Positions 33,180 through 37,857 of a stretch of 64,000 bases of DNA are shown here, piece after piece (the first letter of the stretch is position 1; each line of letters starts with the position of its first letter). The notes beneath the pieces are model-generated. The model did no database searches, was not told the origin of the DNA, and was given only the letters and a program-made list of their open reading frames with translations. The stretch is from the NCBI RefSeq assembly GCF_007625155.1, contig NZ_VMNK01000006.1:372001-436000 (forward strand), read 5' to 3'. This DNA is from Denitromonas halophila. Lineage in GTDB: Bacteria > Pseudomonadota > Gammaproteobacteria > Burkholderiales > Rhodocyclaceae. A program made the position numbers and the translations under genes.

Positions 33180-33851
33180 GTGGCGGGCGTGAGTGTCTCG
33201 CTGCTGGTCGCTGGCGCGGCGGCCATGCTCGCCGGTGGCGTACTGTGGCGCAAGCGCGTGGCCCGCGAGCGCGGGCAGTTTCTCCAGCACTACGATTTCA
33301 GCCGCCTGCTCGACAAACGCCTCGCCAGCCGCCGGCCCGAACTAAGCCCGGCGCAACGCAAAACCGTCTTTCACGGCCTGCGCGACTGGTTCGAAATCAA
33401 CCACCGCGCCGGCCGACGCAAGCTATCAATGCCCTCACAGGCGGTCGATGACGCGTGGCACGAGTTCATCCTGTTCACCCGCAATTATCAGGATTTCTGC
33501 CGCCGGGGGCTGGGGCGTTTTCTGCACCATGTACCCGCCGAGGCGATGACCCGCCCGACGCAGGCGCAAGACGGCCTCAAGCGCAGCTGGCGGCACGCCT
33601 GCGCCCATGAGGGTATCGATCCCAAGTCGCCCTCCCGCCTGCCCCGCCTGTTTGCCATCGACGCAACGCTCGGTCTGAGCGACGGTTTCAGCTACCAGCT
33701 CGACTGCCGCAAAGCGGGTACAGCCGCCAGCGGCGCATACTGTGCGAGCCACATCGGTTGTGGCGGCGGCTGCAGCAGTTGCAGCAGCGACTCGGGCAGC
33801 TCGGATGGGGGTTGTGGCAGCGGCTGCGGCGGAGGTTGTGGCGGCGACTGA
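33180..33851 (+). CDS. GRDP-like (glycine-rich domain-containing) protein with Cys/Gly-rich tail
   Basis: A roughly 223-residue protein: one N-terminal membrane helix, a basic stretch, then a domain with AVDDAWHEFILFTRNYQDFC and LGRFLHHVPAE, matching the W-H-x-F/H-I-L-x-T-x-x-Y-x-x-F-C pattern of GRDP-like proteins. The last ~35 residues are almost only Gly, Ser and Cys (GCGGGCSSCSS, then GCGSGCGGGCGGD), with about nine cysteines. Such tails occur in several uncharacterised bacterial membrane proteins; metal binding or modification is possible but unproven. The GTG start at 33180 follows ruvB by four bases; a GTG at 33189 is an alternative. Confidence 0.65.
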   Translation: MAGVSVSLLVAGAAAMLAGGVLWRKRVARERGQFLQHYDFSRLLDKRLASRRPELSPAQRKTVFHGLRDWFEINHRAGRRKLSMPSQAVDDAWHEFILFTRNYQDFCRRGLGRFLHHVPAEAMTRPTQAQDGLKRSWRHACAHEGIDPKSPSRLPRLFAIDATLGLSDGFSYQLDCRKAGTAASGAYCASHIGCGGGCSSCSSDSGSSDGGCGSGCGGGCGGD

Positions 33852-34532: not shown

Positions 34533-34933
34533 TGCGCACGCTGTCGCTGTTCGTGGTGCTGCTCAGCGGGCTGGCCGGGGCATGGTTGTTCACACGCGGC
34601 GAGTTCTATCTGCCCAACCGCTTTGATCTGTCGCTGGCCACGCATTTCAGCGGCATCTCGGCCCGCCTGCTGGCCGGCGCCCTGCTGTGCCTGAGCGCGG
34701 CGGGGCTCAGTTTCATGCAACGCATGGCCATGGGCACCCGTGCTGGCGCGGATCGCGCCTGGCAGATTCGGCACTTCGTGATCCTCTCGTTGTGCATCAT
34801 GTTGTTCACCGCTGCCTTCATCAAATCCGAAGTCGTGCTCAACCCCGACTACCGCGCACCGGCTCACAGCACAAACACGCTGACGCCGATCTGCGGCGGG
34901 CTTCGCCTACCGTTCGTCATTGCTCGAATTTAA
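34529..34933 (+). CDS. Small membrane protein, unknown
   Basis: A 134-residue protein with three predicted helices (about 4-21, 46-64 and 86-104) and a hydrophilic C-terminal tail. It overlaps the SGNH hydrolase gene by four bases. No family was recognised. The stop codon lies inside the 34-bp palindrome that covers the next promoter. Confidence 0.55.
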   Translation: MMRTLSLFVVLLSGLAGAWLFTRGEFYLPNRFDLSLATHFSGISARLLAGALLCLSAAGLSFMQRMAMGTRAGADRAWQIRHFVILSLCIMLFTAAFIKSEVVLNPDYRAPAHSTNTLTPICGGLRLPFVIARI

Positions 34934-34963
34934 ACATTGACCGACCGGTCGGTTAATGTTTAA
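34930..34963 (+). promoter_or_regulatory. 34-bp near-perfect palindrome overlapping a sigma-70-type promoter
   Basis: Arms of 17 bp pair with one mismatch (34939/34954). The core ACCGACCGGTCGGT at 34940-34953 is perfectly symmetric and of the kind bound by TetR-family repressors. TTGACC at 34937-34942 and TTTAAT at 34959-34964, 16 bp apart, form a promoter that lies almost wholly within the palindrome, so a bound dimer would block RNA polymerase. A second TTGACC at 34968-34973 follows. No regulator gene of the TetR family lies in this window. Confidence 0.75.
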
Positions 34964-35079
34964 TCTCTTGACCTGTATCAAAAACACGTTTTTGCGCGCC
35001 TTCTACTGTTGTCTGCAGGGCGCGCACAGCACAGGACGCCGCCCGTGGCGACGCCCGGATACTCAGGAGGAGACAGACA

Positions 35080-36102
35080 GTGAATAAAGAAAAAATTGCC
35101 CACACCATGGACCTGCCGCCGGTTACGGCGCAGCCCAATGTGTTCCCGCTGTCGTGGAACGCGCAGACCGCCAAGATGGAAGAAGTCTGGGACGCCGCGC
35201 AGCGCGAAAACTGGGACCCCAAGCAACTGGCCTGGGACACCTTCGATGTCGAGAGCTATAGCTGGGAAGAGCGCGAGTCCATCGCCTACTGGTGGACCCT
35301 GCTGTCCTGTTTCGACGCCTCGGCACCCCCGGTTTTCGCCGAGGCGCTGATCAAGTGCTACGAGGACCATGAAGAAGACCCGGTGCGCCGCTGCTTCTTC
35401 TCGGTGACCCGCGACGAGCAGAACCATGAGCAGATGTGCGGCCTGGCCATCACCCGCCTGCTCGAGCACCCGGACCCGCTCACCTACACACCCAAGACCG
35501 AGCTGGGCAAGAAGCTGCAGCGCAATGCCCACTGGCTGTACTACAACGGCGGCCGCTACTGGACGGGCTACAAGAAGGCCGTGCCCAAATACAGCCTGGC
35601 CGTGCTGTTCAGCTCCTTCCTGATGGGCGAGATCGCCGCCGCGACGATCTTCAAGCAGATGCATGACAACACCCGCGAGCTGGTGTTCAAGGAAGCCTTC
35701 CGCAACATCGGTCGTGACGAAGGGCGCCACATGGCCATCTGCATGGCGTTGATGGAGCGCGATTACCCGAAGCTGCCGGACGAGGACCGCGCCATCGTCA
35801 CCAAGCAGATCCGCGCCGGCTACCTGTTCCTGTCGGCCGTGCTGTTCGAGCCGCCGATGGACTTCTGGGACCTCCCGGCCGACTTCATCGATGTGCAACG
35901 CGAGGCCGAGGAAGTGGCCCGCGGCGCCGGCTTCGGCATCCCGACCTACGAGGCCAAGAAGGAAAACTGGAAGAACGCCATGCTCAACCTGAAGGGCGTG
36001 CTCGACCGCTACGACATTCCCTTCCCGGCGATTCCCGAAGTCGGCATCTCCGGCCAGGAGATTTCCGAGATCGAGATGGACGACATCATTCCGGTATTCT
36101 GA
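35080..36102 (+). CDS. Carboxylate-bridged diiron (ferritin-like) oxygenase-type protein, substrate unknown
   Basis: A 340-residue soluble helical protein with two EXXH motifs: E113-Q-N-H116 and E214-G-R-H217. Glutamates E88 and E184, 25-30 residues upstream of each, complete the E...EXXH...E...EXXH ligand set of R2-like/ferritin-like diiron enzymes (acyl-ACP desaturases, AurF-type N-oxygenases, hydroxylases). The sequence DEQNHEQ and DEGRHMA most resembles the desaturase and AurF-like branches, but I cannot place it in one family. The next gene encodes a dedicated reductase, so it is probably an O2-activating enzyme. AGGAGG lies upstream of the GTG/ATG region; the start here is GTG. Confidence 0.75.
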   Translation: MNKEKIAHTMDLPPVTAQPNVFPLSWNAQTAKMEEVWDAAQRENWDPKQLAWDTFDVESYSWEERESIAYWWTLLSCFDASAPPVFAEALIKCYEDHEEDPVRRCFFSVTRDEQNHEQMCGLAITRLLEHPDPLTYTPKTELGKKLQRNAHWLYYNGGRYWTGYKKAVPKYSLAVLFSSFLMGEIAAATIFKQMHDNTRELVFKEAFRNIGRDEGRHMAICMALMERDYPKLPDEDRAIVTKQIRAGYLFLSAVLFEPPMDFWDLPADFIDVQREAEEVARGAGFGIPTYEAKKENWKNAMLNLKGVLDRYDIPFPAIPEVGISGQEISEIEMDDIIPVF

Positions 36103-36171
36103 TCGTCATCACGCCGCGTCCGGGTCGCCACGCAGGTGGCGGCCCGTTTTTGCCTCAACAGGAGAACAACA

Positions 36172-37221
36172 ATGAGCCGAATCCGCCTGCATCCCTCCGG
36201 TCGCGAAGTGGAGTGTGCCAGCGGTGACACCGTCCTCGGTGCCCTCGAAAAAGCCGGTTACGCGCTGCCCAACAACTGCCGCGCCGGCGCCTGTGGCGAA
36301 TGCAAGGTCAAGGTCGTGTCCGGCAACTTCGACCAGGGCATGGTACTCGACATGGCCTTGTCGCAAGATGAGCGCACGCAGGGCTTCGGCCTGATGTGCA
36401 TGGCCAAGCCGCTGTCCGAAGAGATGGTCATCGAGTGGGGCACGGAAGACGCCAAGCCCAAGTTGTTTCCACCGCGCGAGAACCAGCGCTTCGTGGTCAC
36501 CGACCGCATCCCGCGCACGCCGCGCATCGTCGAGCTGCGCCTGCGCCCGGTTGGCCCGCCCATGCGCTTCTGGCCCGGGCAGTACATCACCCTCGGCAAC
36601 GAGCGCGACGGCGCCCCCGCGCGCTGCTACTCGATCGCCAACGCCCCGCGACCCGACGGCGAAATCGTGTTGCAAGTGACCCGCGTTGATGAAGGCCAGA
36701 CCAGCCTGTGGGTGCACGACAAGCTCGGCATCGGCGAGCTCGTCAAACTCTCCGGCCCTTACGGCACCTTCATTGGCGACCCCGCGGTCGAATCCCCGGT
36801 GCTGTGTCTCGCCGCCGGATCGGGCCTCGCGCCGATTCTTTCGCTGGCCGAAGCGGCGCTGCGCCGCGGTTACCGCAAGCCGGTCGACCTCGTGTTTTCA
36901 GCCCGCGAACGCTCCGACCTCTACGATGGCGGGCTGATGAAGTACTGGGAAACCAAGCACCGCAACTTCACCTATCGCCCCACGCTCACCCGCGAGACCT
37001 GCGATGGCCTGCTGCACGGCCGGATTCCCGAGGTGCTCGCCAAGCAGTTTCCCGACCTGTCCAGGCACAGCGTGTTCATCGCCGGCAGCCCGGCCTTCGT
37101 CGCCGACTGCGTAGCGGCGGCCAAAGCCCTGGGTGCCACCGACGAGATGATCCACACCGAGGGCTACTTCGGTCAGGCCCAGCCGCAAACCGCACCGCAA
37201 AGCCATCTCACGCCGTACTGA
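36172..37221 (+). CDS. 2Fe-2S/FAD/NAD(P)H oxidoreductase, electron donor to the diiron protein
   Basis: The 349-residue reductase has an N-terminal plant-type ferredoxin domain (C36, C41, C44, C76), a central FAD domain with RCYSIAN at 151-157, and a C-terminal NAD domain with AAGSGLAP near 214-221. The domain order is that of phenol hydroxylase and methane monooxygenase reductases. Electrons would flow from NAD(P)H through FAD and the cluster to the diiron protein encoded 70 bp upstream. CAGGAGA precedes the ATG. No small effector/regulatory component or second hydroxylase subunit is encoded nearby, which argues against a classical multicomponent monooxygenase. Confidence 0.88.
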   Translation: MSRIRLHPSGREVECASGDTVLGALEKAGYALPNNCRAGACGECKVKVVSGNFDQGMVLDMALSQDERTQGFGLMCMAKPLSEEMVIEWGTEDAKPKLFPPRENQRFVVTDRIPRTPRIVELRLRPVGPPMRFWPGQYITLGNERDGAPARCYSIANAPRPDGEIVLQVTRVDEGQTSLWVHDKLGIGELVKLSGPYGTFIGDPAVESPVLCLAAGSGLAPILSLAEAALRRGYRKPVDLVFSARERSDLYDGGLMKYWETKHRNFTYRPTLTRETCDGLLHGRIPEVLAKQFPDLSRHSVFIAGSPAFVADCVAAAKALGATDEMIHTEGYFGQAQPQTAPQSHLTPY

Positions 37222-37287: not shown

Positions 37288-37620
37288 TCAGCCGCCCGAG
37301 CAGCCGCAACCACCGCCGCCGCCACCGCAACCGCCGCCACCTTGCTCAGGCGCCGATTCCGCCGGCGCGCCATTGGCCACGCCGAGCTGGATGGTGAAAT
37401 CGATGACGATTTCGCCGGCTTCGCGGGTCACATAGTTGATGCCGACCTGGTTGCCATAACGCTGCTGGATCTGGCCCAGCAGGGGCAGCGGATCGTGGTC
37501 ATTCACAAAACGCATGGTCTCGCCGTCGGCGAGGGACTCCAGCGCACCGAAAATCGACGCATGGCGGAAGCGCTTGGCCACGCCGCGGGCGTCGAACGGA
37601 AAGACGTTGCTATCGTTCAT
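37288..37620 (-). CDS. DUF2249 protein with Cys/Gly-rich tail
   Basis: A 110-residue protein. The DUF2249 core (FDARGVAKRFRHASIFGALESL, then MRFVNDHDPLPLLGQIQQRYG) is a small alpha/beta domain often linked to hemerythrin or iron-sulphur repair proteins. After ~90 residues comes a tail of Gly and Cys (GGGGCGGGGGGCGCSGG). It converges on the diiron reductase gene. ATG at 37620 gives the family start; a longer ORF has no support. Confidence 0.75.
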   Translation of the reverse strand: MNDSNVFPFDARGVAKRFRHASIFGALESLADGETMRFVNDHDPLPLLGQIQQRYGNQVGINYVTREAGEIVIDFTIQLGVANGAPAESAPEQGGGGCGGGGGGCGCSGG

Positions 37621-37857
37621 GTTGGTTTCACTCTTGGGGTTTGCGGATACGGCCAGCGCTGACGCTGACCTCGTGCGCCGATGATCCCGATTTGCCCGCC
37701 CTAACGCCTTGAGTTGGCGCAAATTTCCGTCACCCCGACGAACGGCACGGCCCGCGAACCGGCCGGCCACCATGCCGGTCACACGGAAAATCCTTGACGG
37801 CACGCCATGGCGTGTCCGCAAAATAGCCCCGACACCGCCTAGGGGAGGACACCAGGC

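Follow-up and report, generated by a model that had tools for sequence, protein, structure and literature searches.

A two-gene R2-like diiron oxygenase and reductase system as a proposed phenylacetyl-CoA epoxidase in Denitromonas halophila and other bacteria

A stretch of 64,000 nt from Denitromonas halophila (the window, to which all plain coordinates refer) contains two adjacent genes, designated here DI, for the diiron protein it encodes, and RED, for the reductase. The pair is preceded by a PaaR-type operator and an FNR/Anr-like box (Table 1). The subject of this work is the possible role of DI-RED in the degradation of phenylacetyl-coenzyme A (phenylacetyl-CoA), a central node for aromatics such as phenylalanine and styrene.

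Table 1. Features of the DI-RED pair and its promoter region in the window
Feature	Positions	Strand	Remark
PaaR-type operator ACCGACCGGTCGGT, core of the 20-mer TTGACCGACCGGTCGGTTAA	34940..34953	.	sole exact copy in the window
FNR/Anr-like box TTGACCTGTATCAA	34968..34981	.	1 mismatch to the consensus TTGAT-N4-ATCAA
Ribosome-binding site AGGAGGAG of DI	35065..35072	+	sequence reading; strong
DI, R2-like diiron oxygenase, 340 aa	35080..36102	+	proposed phenylacetyl-CoA epoxidase
Alternative GTG start of RED	36136		
Ribosome-binding site AGGAG of RED	36160..36164	+	sequence reading
RED, reductase, 349 aa	36172..37221	+	N-terminal plant-type 2Fe-2S domain, then FAD and NAD domains

A single scan across species genomes returned 168 relatives of DI, of which the best 80 were retained as loci (L numbers), with up to 8 kb fetched on each side of DI. 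These loci come from alpha-, beta- and gammaproteobacteria and from a few metagenome bins labelled otherwise. RED lies directly downstream of DI in all 80, at a spacing of 3 to 477 nt by aligned ends (median 102), and the distances among DI and among RED proteins are correlated (Mantel r 0.70 over 79 loci; 0 of 999 permutations as high). The DI protein of D. ohlonensis is 99% identical to that of the window. In the three plasmid records that annotate relatives of DI, the product is given as a hypothetical protein.

The conserved ligand set of DI consists of D79, E113, H116, E184, E214 and H217. An earlier, sequence-only reading of the window had proposed a diiron protein with its own reductase; the pair was confirmed and the other five ligands were kept, but E88, which that reading took as the first ligand, is variable among the relatives and had to be replaced by D79. 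The first ligand is then an aspartate, as in R2 of E. coli. DI is predicted to be a diiron protein of the R2-like class, and it has in RED a dedicated partner for electron transfer. The domain order of RED is that of BenC and of the MmoC-type reductases, and RED resembles the reductases of the soluble diiron monooxygenases (methane, toluene). Neither a coupling protein nor a second hydroxylase subunit was recognised beside DI among the reading frames of the window and the families shared by the 80 loci, no dedicated search having been made. The earlier view of a minimal, self-contained oxygenase and reductase rather than a classical multicomponent monooxygenase is supported.

The Pfam matches of DI (AurF, R2, Rubrerythrin and DUF2202) are all sub-threshold, a scan at the Azonexus hydrophilus locus L068 gave no NCBIfam family for DI itself, and phmmer retrieved no relative from the PDB up to E 10. 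A profile search of the PDB returned short and weak matches only. Identity to R2lox and to R2 of class I ribonucleotide reductase is 8-14% among the matches listed. With its predicted R2-like diiron/Mn-Fe bundle DI fits R2lox by fold only, and membership of R2lox was rejected on that ground. Membership of the class I R2 proteins was rejected at 20.9 bits, below the Ribonuc_red_sm gathering threshold of 33.6, and the partner of DI is a reductase. Likewise, an AurF-type N-oxygenase was rejected at 26.1 bits, below the gathering threshold of 29.6 for PF11583 (the homologues in L119 and L120, described below, reach 23.5 and 25.4). The extra histidine ligand of AurF, which lies four residues before the second ExxH motif, would fall at position 210 of DI, where 61 sequences have an invariant isoleucine and not a histidine. 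The AurF/CmlI-type arylamine oxygenases and the azoxy synthase VlmB moreover stand in a natural-product context, whereas that of DI is catabolic. Membership of the desaturases was rejected as well, as neither Pfam nor NCBIfam yielded a desaturase family for DI.

The operator upstream of DI is identical in 14 of 14 bases to the inverted repeat in the paaA promoter of Burkholderia cenocepacia. According to the part of PMC2770484 consulted, mutation showed this repeat to be required for repression, and the TetR-type PaaR is required for the repression of paaA; binding of PaaR at the repeat is the hypothesis of its authors. D. halophila itself has a complete-looking paa cluster elsewhere in the genome (L121), with the order thiolase, TetR-type repressor, PaaE-A, PaaK, PaaI, PaaH, PaaG and then, divergently, PaaN and PaaY. 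PaaA, PaaK, PaaG and PaaN of this cluster exceed their curated cut-offs; here and below, the names PaaY, PaaI, PaaJ and PaaB-E outside the NCBIfam scans are based on similarity and gene order. The TetR-type protein (L121:5613-6242) carries TetR_N and TetR_C_24 domains, and its only NCBIfam match, to a family of transcriptional regulators, is below threshold; its position suggests that it is PaaR. Between paaG and paaN lies the site ACCGACCGGTCGAT, which shares 13 of its 14 bases with the DI operator. The operator is not private to the pair, contrary to the sequence-only reading. Both sites have a single mismatch to the palindrome TTGACCGACCGGTCGGTCAA, and the seven remaining places of this genome that match the core with at most one mismatch differ from the palindrome at 3 to 8 positions; the choice of R at position 13 and of the 20-mer palindrome was made with both sites in view. 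Two further operator-like sites in the same genome, L127 (G000:C21:65875) and L131 (C31:701006), are 3 mismatches away from the 20-mer palindrome and are possible targets of the same or of another TetR-type repressor.

Promoter motifs could be scored in 78 of the 80 loci. In 25 of them the 350 bp upstream of DI contain the operator 14-mer with up to two mismatches; random stretches would give 1.1, and five rounds of promoter resampling gave 0. The gene paaX was found on the fetched stretch in 36 of the 78, operator and paaX never occur together (0/78), and 17 loci have neither. As 25 loci have the operator and 36 have paaX, DI is tied to one or the other phenylacetate regulator in 61 of the 78. 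These data suggest that DI-RED of D. halophila belongs to the PaaR regulon, with the operator as the putative PaaR-binding site.

Clustering of the reading frames over the 80 loci showed recurrent families beside DI that resemble phenylacetate genes. For the counts that follow, paa genes on the flanks were found by comparison with the paa proteins of the D. halophila genome plus one PaaZ and one PaaX, and PaaA was called by TIGR02156 at its curated cut-off. PaaA is present in 42 of the 80 DI genomes (25 of the 50 tested first and 17 of the remaining 30) and absent above the cut-off from 38, of which 34 have no PaaA-like match at all at E 0.001. Of the 38 loci of PaaA-negative genomes, 23 have on the flank at least two other paa genes out of PaaG, H, J, K, N, Z, X and R, as do 12 of the 42 loci of PaaA-positive genomes. 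In the PaaA-negative group PaaG is found on the flank in 21 of 38 loci, and PaaA or PaaC in none. PaaA-E occur as separate genes on 7 of the 80 loci, PaaA-C on L071, and none of them on the remaining 72. Seven loci (of Marinospirillum and others) have DI-RED placed between paaK and paaABCDE, and a Vitreoscilla plasmid holds both systems.

Among the clusters that have DI only, that of A. hydrophilus (L068) contains PaaX, PaaG, PaaH, PaaI, PaaK, PaaN and a thiolase, all above curated NCBIfam cut-offs, with no PaaA-E on the locus and no PaaA match in the genome. The single-contig genome G075 (L124) has, by similarity, the order PaaY, PaaX, RED, DI, PaaN, PaaG, PaaH, PaaI, PaaK, PaaJ. In a Tepidiphilus genome (L125, the same genome as L051) the paa cluster is without PaaA-E and DI is found on a different contig.

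The phylogenetic profile was extended to 297 genomes (G numbers) of the family to which the window belongs. This sample is not independent of the 80 loci since they have members in common (e.g. G006 and the genome of L037). PaaN, called by TIGR02288, served as marker of the aldehyde-dehydrogenase step after TIGR02278 (bifunctional PaaZ), above cut-off in 27 of the 297 genomes, had proved too narrow; in the first 50 DI genomes that step is kept throughout, by PaaN in 43 and by the bifunctional PaaZ in the other 7. DI was found in 55 family genomes (one match of 25% identity having been dropped) and PaaA in 71, with both in 28 and DI only in 27. The DI-only genomes are spread over about a dozen genera, five of them are single contigs that are 99-100% complete (G027, G075, G086, G177 and G249), and DI and PaaN are no more than 10 kb apart in 17 of the 27. 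Among the PaaA-negative family genomes, PaaN is present in 25 of the 27 with DI, whereas only 27 of the 199 without DI have it (Fisher 1e-16, kinship ignored). With a PaaN score above 850 bits, a line set after the scores were visible, the same comparison gives 23/27 and 7/199. PaaN exceeds 850 bits in 91 family genomes, of which 61 have PaaA, 23 have DI without PaaA, and 7 have a divergent PaaA-like protein, so that (61+23+7 = 91) each of these genomes has one of three epoxidase candidates.

The divergent PaaA-like protein (in G017, G062, G071, G268, G281, G294 and G305) is encoded 660 to 828 nt from PaaN and is the third of these candidates. At L122:9282-10085 (G294) and L123:8914-9579 (G062) it lies beside PaaN, PaaG and PaaI; the L122 protein scores 57 bits with TIGR02156 and 76.9 bits with PF05138, and no PaaB-E match was found on these two loci. 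DI itself is in two pieces in G259 (C15:87859-88498) and G286 (C7:309635-310652), both of which also have PaaA; this may reflect an assembly error or the decay of a copy that has become redundant.

The substrate suggested by the operator, the neighbouring genes and the phylogenetic profile is phenylacetyl-CoA, so that the chemistry, which the sequence-only reading had considered impossible to name, can now be proposed. DI-RED is probably a ring epoxidase for phenylacetyl-CoA made of two components, which would fill the role of PaaABCDE without being homologous to it. RED would carry electrons from NAD(P)H via FAD and the 2Fe-2S centre to the diiron site of DI, and DI would activate O2 and epoxidise the ring of phenylacetyl-CoA to the 1,2-epoxide. 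PaaG would isomerise the 1,2-epoxide to the oxepin, which PaaN or PaaZ and the lower pathway would degrade. The 1,2-epoxide is suggested as the product mainly because the clusters with DI alone keep PaaG, the epoxide isomerase. In Denitromonas, DI-RED would be a second epoxidase of the PaaR regulon alongside PaaABCDE; roughly half of the DI genomes examined yielded no other candidate for ring oxygenation.

DI-RED and PaaABCDE would share the pathway slot, the regulon and the downstream enzymes, and both combine a diiron oxygenase with a reductase that has 2Fe-2S, FAD and NAD domains. They differ in that no counterpart of PaaB, PaaC or PaaD adjoins DI, and in that the 2Fe-2S domain is the last in PaaE of D. 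halophila but the first in RED. PF05138 (PaaA_PaaC) gave no match in DI up to E 1, against 328.7 bits for PaaA of the same genome. As nothing places DI in the PaaA/PaaC family and the domain order of RED is opposite to that of PaaE, DI-RED appears to be an independent invention for the slot of PaaABCDE.

Several results weigh against this proposal. Alignment of DI with PaaA by hhalign gave a probability of 0.2% (for one PaaA sequence and a shallow profile), and as DI and PaaA show no sequence relation, the assigned reaction rests on context. Genome-wide, near matches to the operator 14-mer are not enriched (15 strand hits versus 14 for the reversed control), and the argument therefore uses how closely the two best sites match, not the number of sites. 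Fewer than two paa genes flank DI in 15 of the 38 PaaA-negative loci. PaaA-like matches below the cut-off occur in 4 of the 38 PaaA-negative DI genomes (L087, L088, L089 and L094), that of L094 being a 60-position C-terminal piece which may derive from a real PaaA. PaaN alone is an imperfect marker, since 27 family genomes carry it above cut-off with neither PaaA nor DI; seven of these have the divergent PaaA-like protein beside PaaN, and the other 20 have a low-scoring PaaN for which we have no explanation here. Nine PaaA-only family genomes are without PaaN, as are two DI-only genomes, G074 (where DI is a fragment of 57% identity) and G245 (65% complete). Finally, all Fisher values in this work ignore kinship.

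The FNR/Anr-like box suggests an extension of the epoxidase proposal, in which FNR/Anr turns on DI-RED when oxygen is limited and PaaABCDE serves at high oxygen. With the consensus TTGAT-N4-ATCAA and at most one mismatch, the box is found in 30 of the 78 DI promoters versus 1.7 expected from random stretches of the same loci, and the exact box in 14 versus 0.6. Resampling of composition-matched promoters gave 1.1 (at most 3/78 in 20 rounds) and 0, respectively, and the reversed motif was found in none of the 78. PaaA is present in 26 of the 30 loci with the box versus 16 of the 48 without it (Fisher 5e-6, kinship ignored); in the first 50 genomes the box precedes DI in 17 of the 25 with PaaA versus 3 of the 25 without. 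In Azospirillum both the box and PaaA are present in L086 and L104, and neither the box nor PaaA above cut-off in L088 and L089. A prediction fixed beforehand for the other 30 genomes held for the box-bearing loci, 9 of 10 of which have PaaA, but PaaA is missing in only 10 of the 18 scored box-less loci (Fisher 0.04; 10/17 excluding L071, flagged beforehand). This prediction was not fully blind, as the genomes of L037, L041 and L044 had already been scored and the L055 and L071 loci themselves contain paaA; the fresh loci alone give 5 of 6 with the box (four of these successes being Azospirillum) and 10 of 17 without it (Fisher 0.15).

The box also occurs without PaaA above cut-off, in Tepidiphilus (L051, L054 and L056) and in L087. 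Moreover, FNR-like boxes precede paaA in three Marinospirillum loci and lie in the paaG/paaN region of D. halophila, which rules the box out as a mark of DI alone and indicates that the whole regulon may respond to oxygen. The Marinospirillum boxes (L045:10283, L046:10287 and L049:10282) are located between RED and paaA, and PaaABCDE may be oxygen-regulated there too. Taken together, a low-oxygen role of DI-RED is quite possible, with somewhat less than an even chance of being right.

DI-RED might instead act on a different arylacetyl-CoA (e.g. hydroxylated or heteroaromatic) that feeds the same lower pathway. That both enzymes are retained in 42 of the 80 DI genomes would agree with this, as would a branch 48-53% identical to DI, comprising L119:12001-12975 on a Variovorax plasmid and L120:12001-12978 of Nonomuraea. 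In Variovorax the DI and RED homologues adjoin PaaN, an AMP-binding protein, a CoA transferase, a thiolase and branched-chain-type transporters, with no annotated PaaA-E beside them. This branch is possibly another aryl-CoA oxygenase, and its different CoA-type cluster suggests that the wider family may vary in substrate. In L068, however, the sole-DI cluster that was scanned, PaaK exceeds the cut-off for phenylacetate-CoA ligase, PaaG that for epoxyphenylacetyl-CoA isomerase and PaaX its own, in a genome without a PaaA match, and we consider a different substrate of DI-RED itself improbable. Least probable is a supporting role in the pathway, accessory or protective (as a peroxidase, or in epoxide removal or repair), instead of that of the oxygenase. 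Ferritin-like folds often play such roles, and DI has a weak, sub-threshold Rubrerythrin similarity, but this reading would leave 34 of the 38 PaaA-negative DI genomes without a PaaA-like match (E 0.001) or a known ring-oxygenation enzyme.

Returning to the ring epoxidase, we tentatively sketch a wider picture, which we hold to be a minority prospect as a whole. Phenylacetyl-CoA epoxidation would have been invented twice and independently, as PaaABCDE and as an R2-like diiron epoxidase for aryl-CoA that consists of one subunit and has its own reductase. Holders of both would use the latter when oxygen is limited, by way of the FNR/Anr box next to the PaaR operator, and others would rely on it alone; the sister branch of Variovorax and Nonomuraea would carry out a reaction of this type with a different aryl-CoA.

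In the literature examined PaaABCDE is taken as the enzyme of ring oxygenation for phenylacetyl-CoA. No other phenylacetyl-CoA epoxidase and no description of DI-RED was recognised there, subscription papers and preprints lying mostly or wholly outside the search, and the portions consulted of PMC2653477, PMC9765128, PMC2907700 and PMC3899980 do not mention such a pair. An alternative oxepin-CoA hydrolase, described in the part of PMC9007349 consulted, is not an oxygenase and fills a different gap in the pathway, and a cluster with an 'atypical oxygenase' includes, in the section seen of PMC9416434, genes annotated as epoxidase subunits A and B. In an excerpt of PMC3899980, two Azospirillum strains with a complete paa cluster grow on phenylacetate and A. 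brasilense does not. A 2026 survey of 6,536 genomes, as far as the part of PMC13186573 consulted indicates, kept ligase genes only if they were co-localised with PaaABCDE and called PaaA and PaaC robust pathway markers. As PaaABCDE beside the ligase was required, organisms with DI only would not have been retained by the procedure given in that part. If the proposed function is correct, surveys based on PaaA and PaaC overlook whole genera, a reaction assigned to five subunits is feasible with one R2-like subunit and a reductase, the oxygen range of the phenylacetate pathway becomes directly testable, and a family annotated as hypothetical protein acquires a function.

The pair is flanked in the window by two proteins with Cys/Gly-rich C-terminal tails, a DUF2249 protein (37291-37641, minus strand) and a protein without Pfam domain (33213-33848, plus strand). 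The sequence-only reading had noted them beside the pair; a link with it was dropped, as relatives of these neighbours are found in only 3 of the 80 DI loci, all of them Denitromonas-like.

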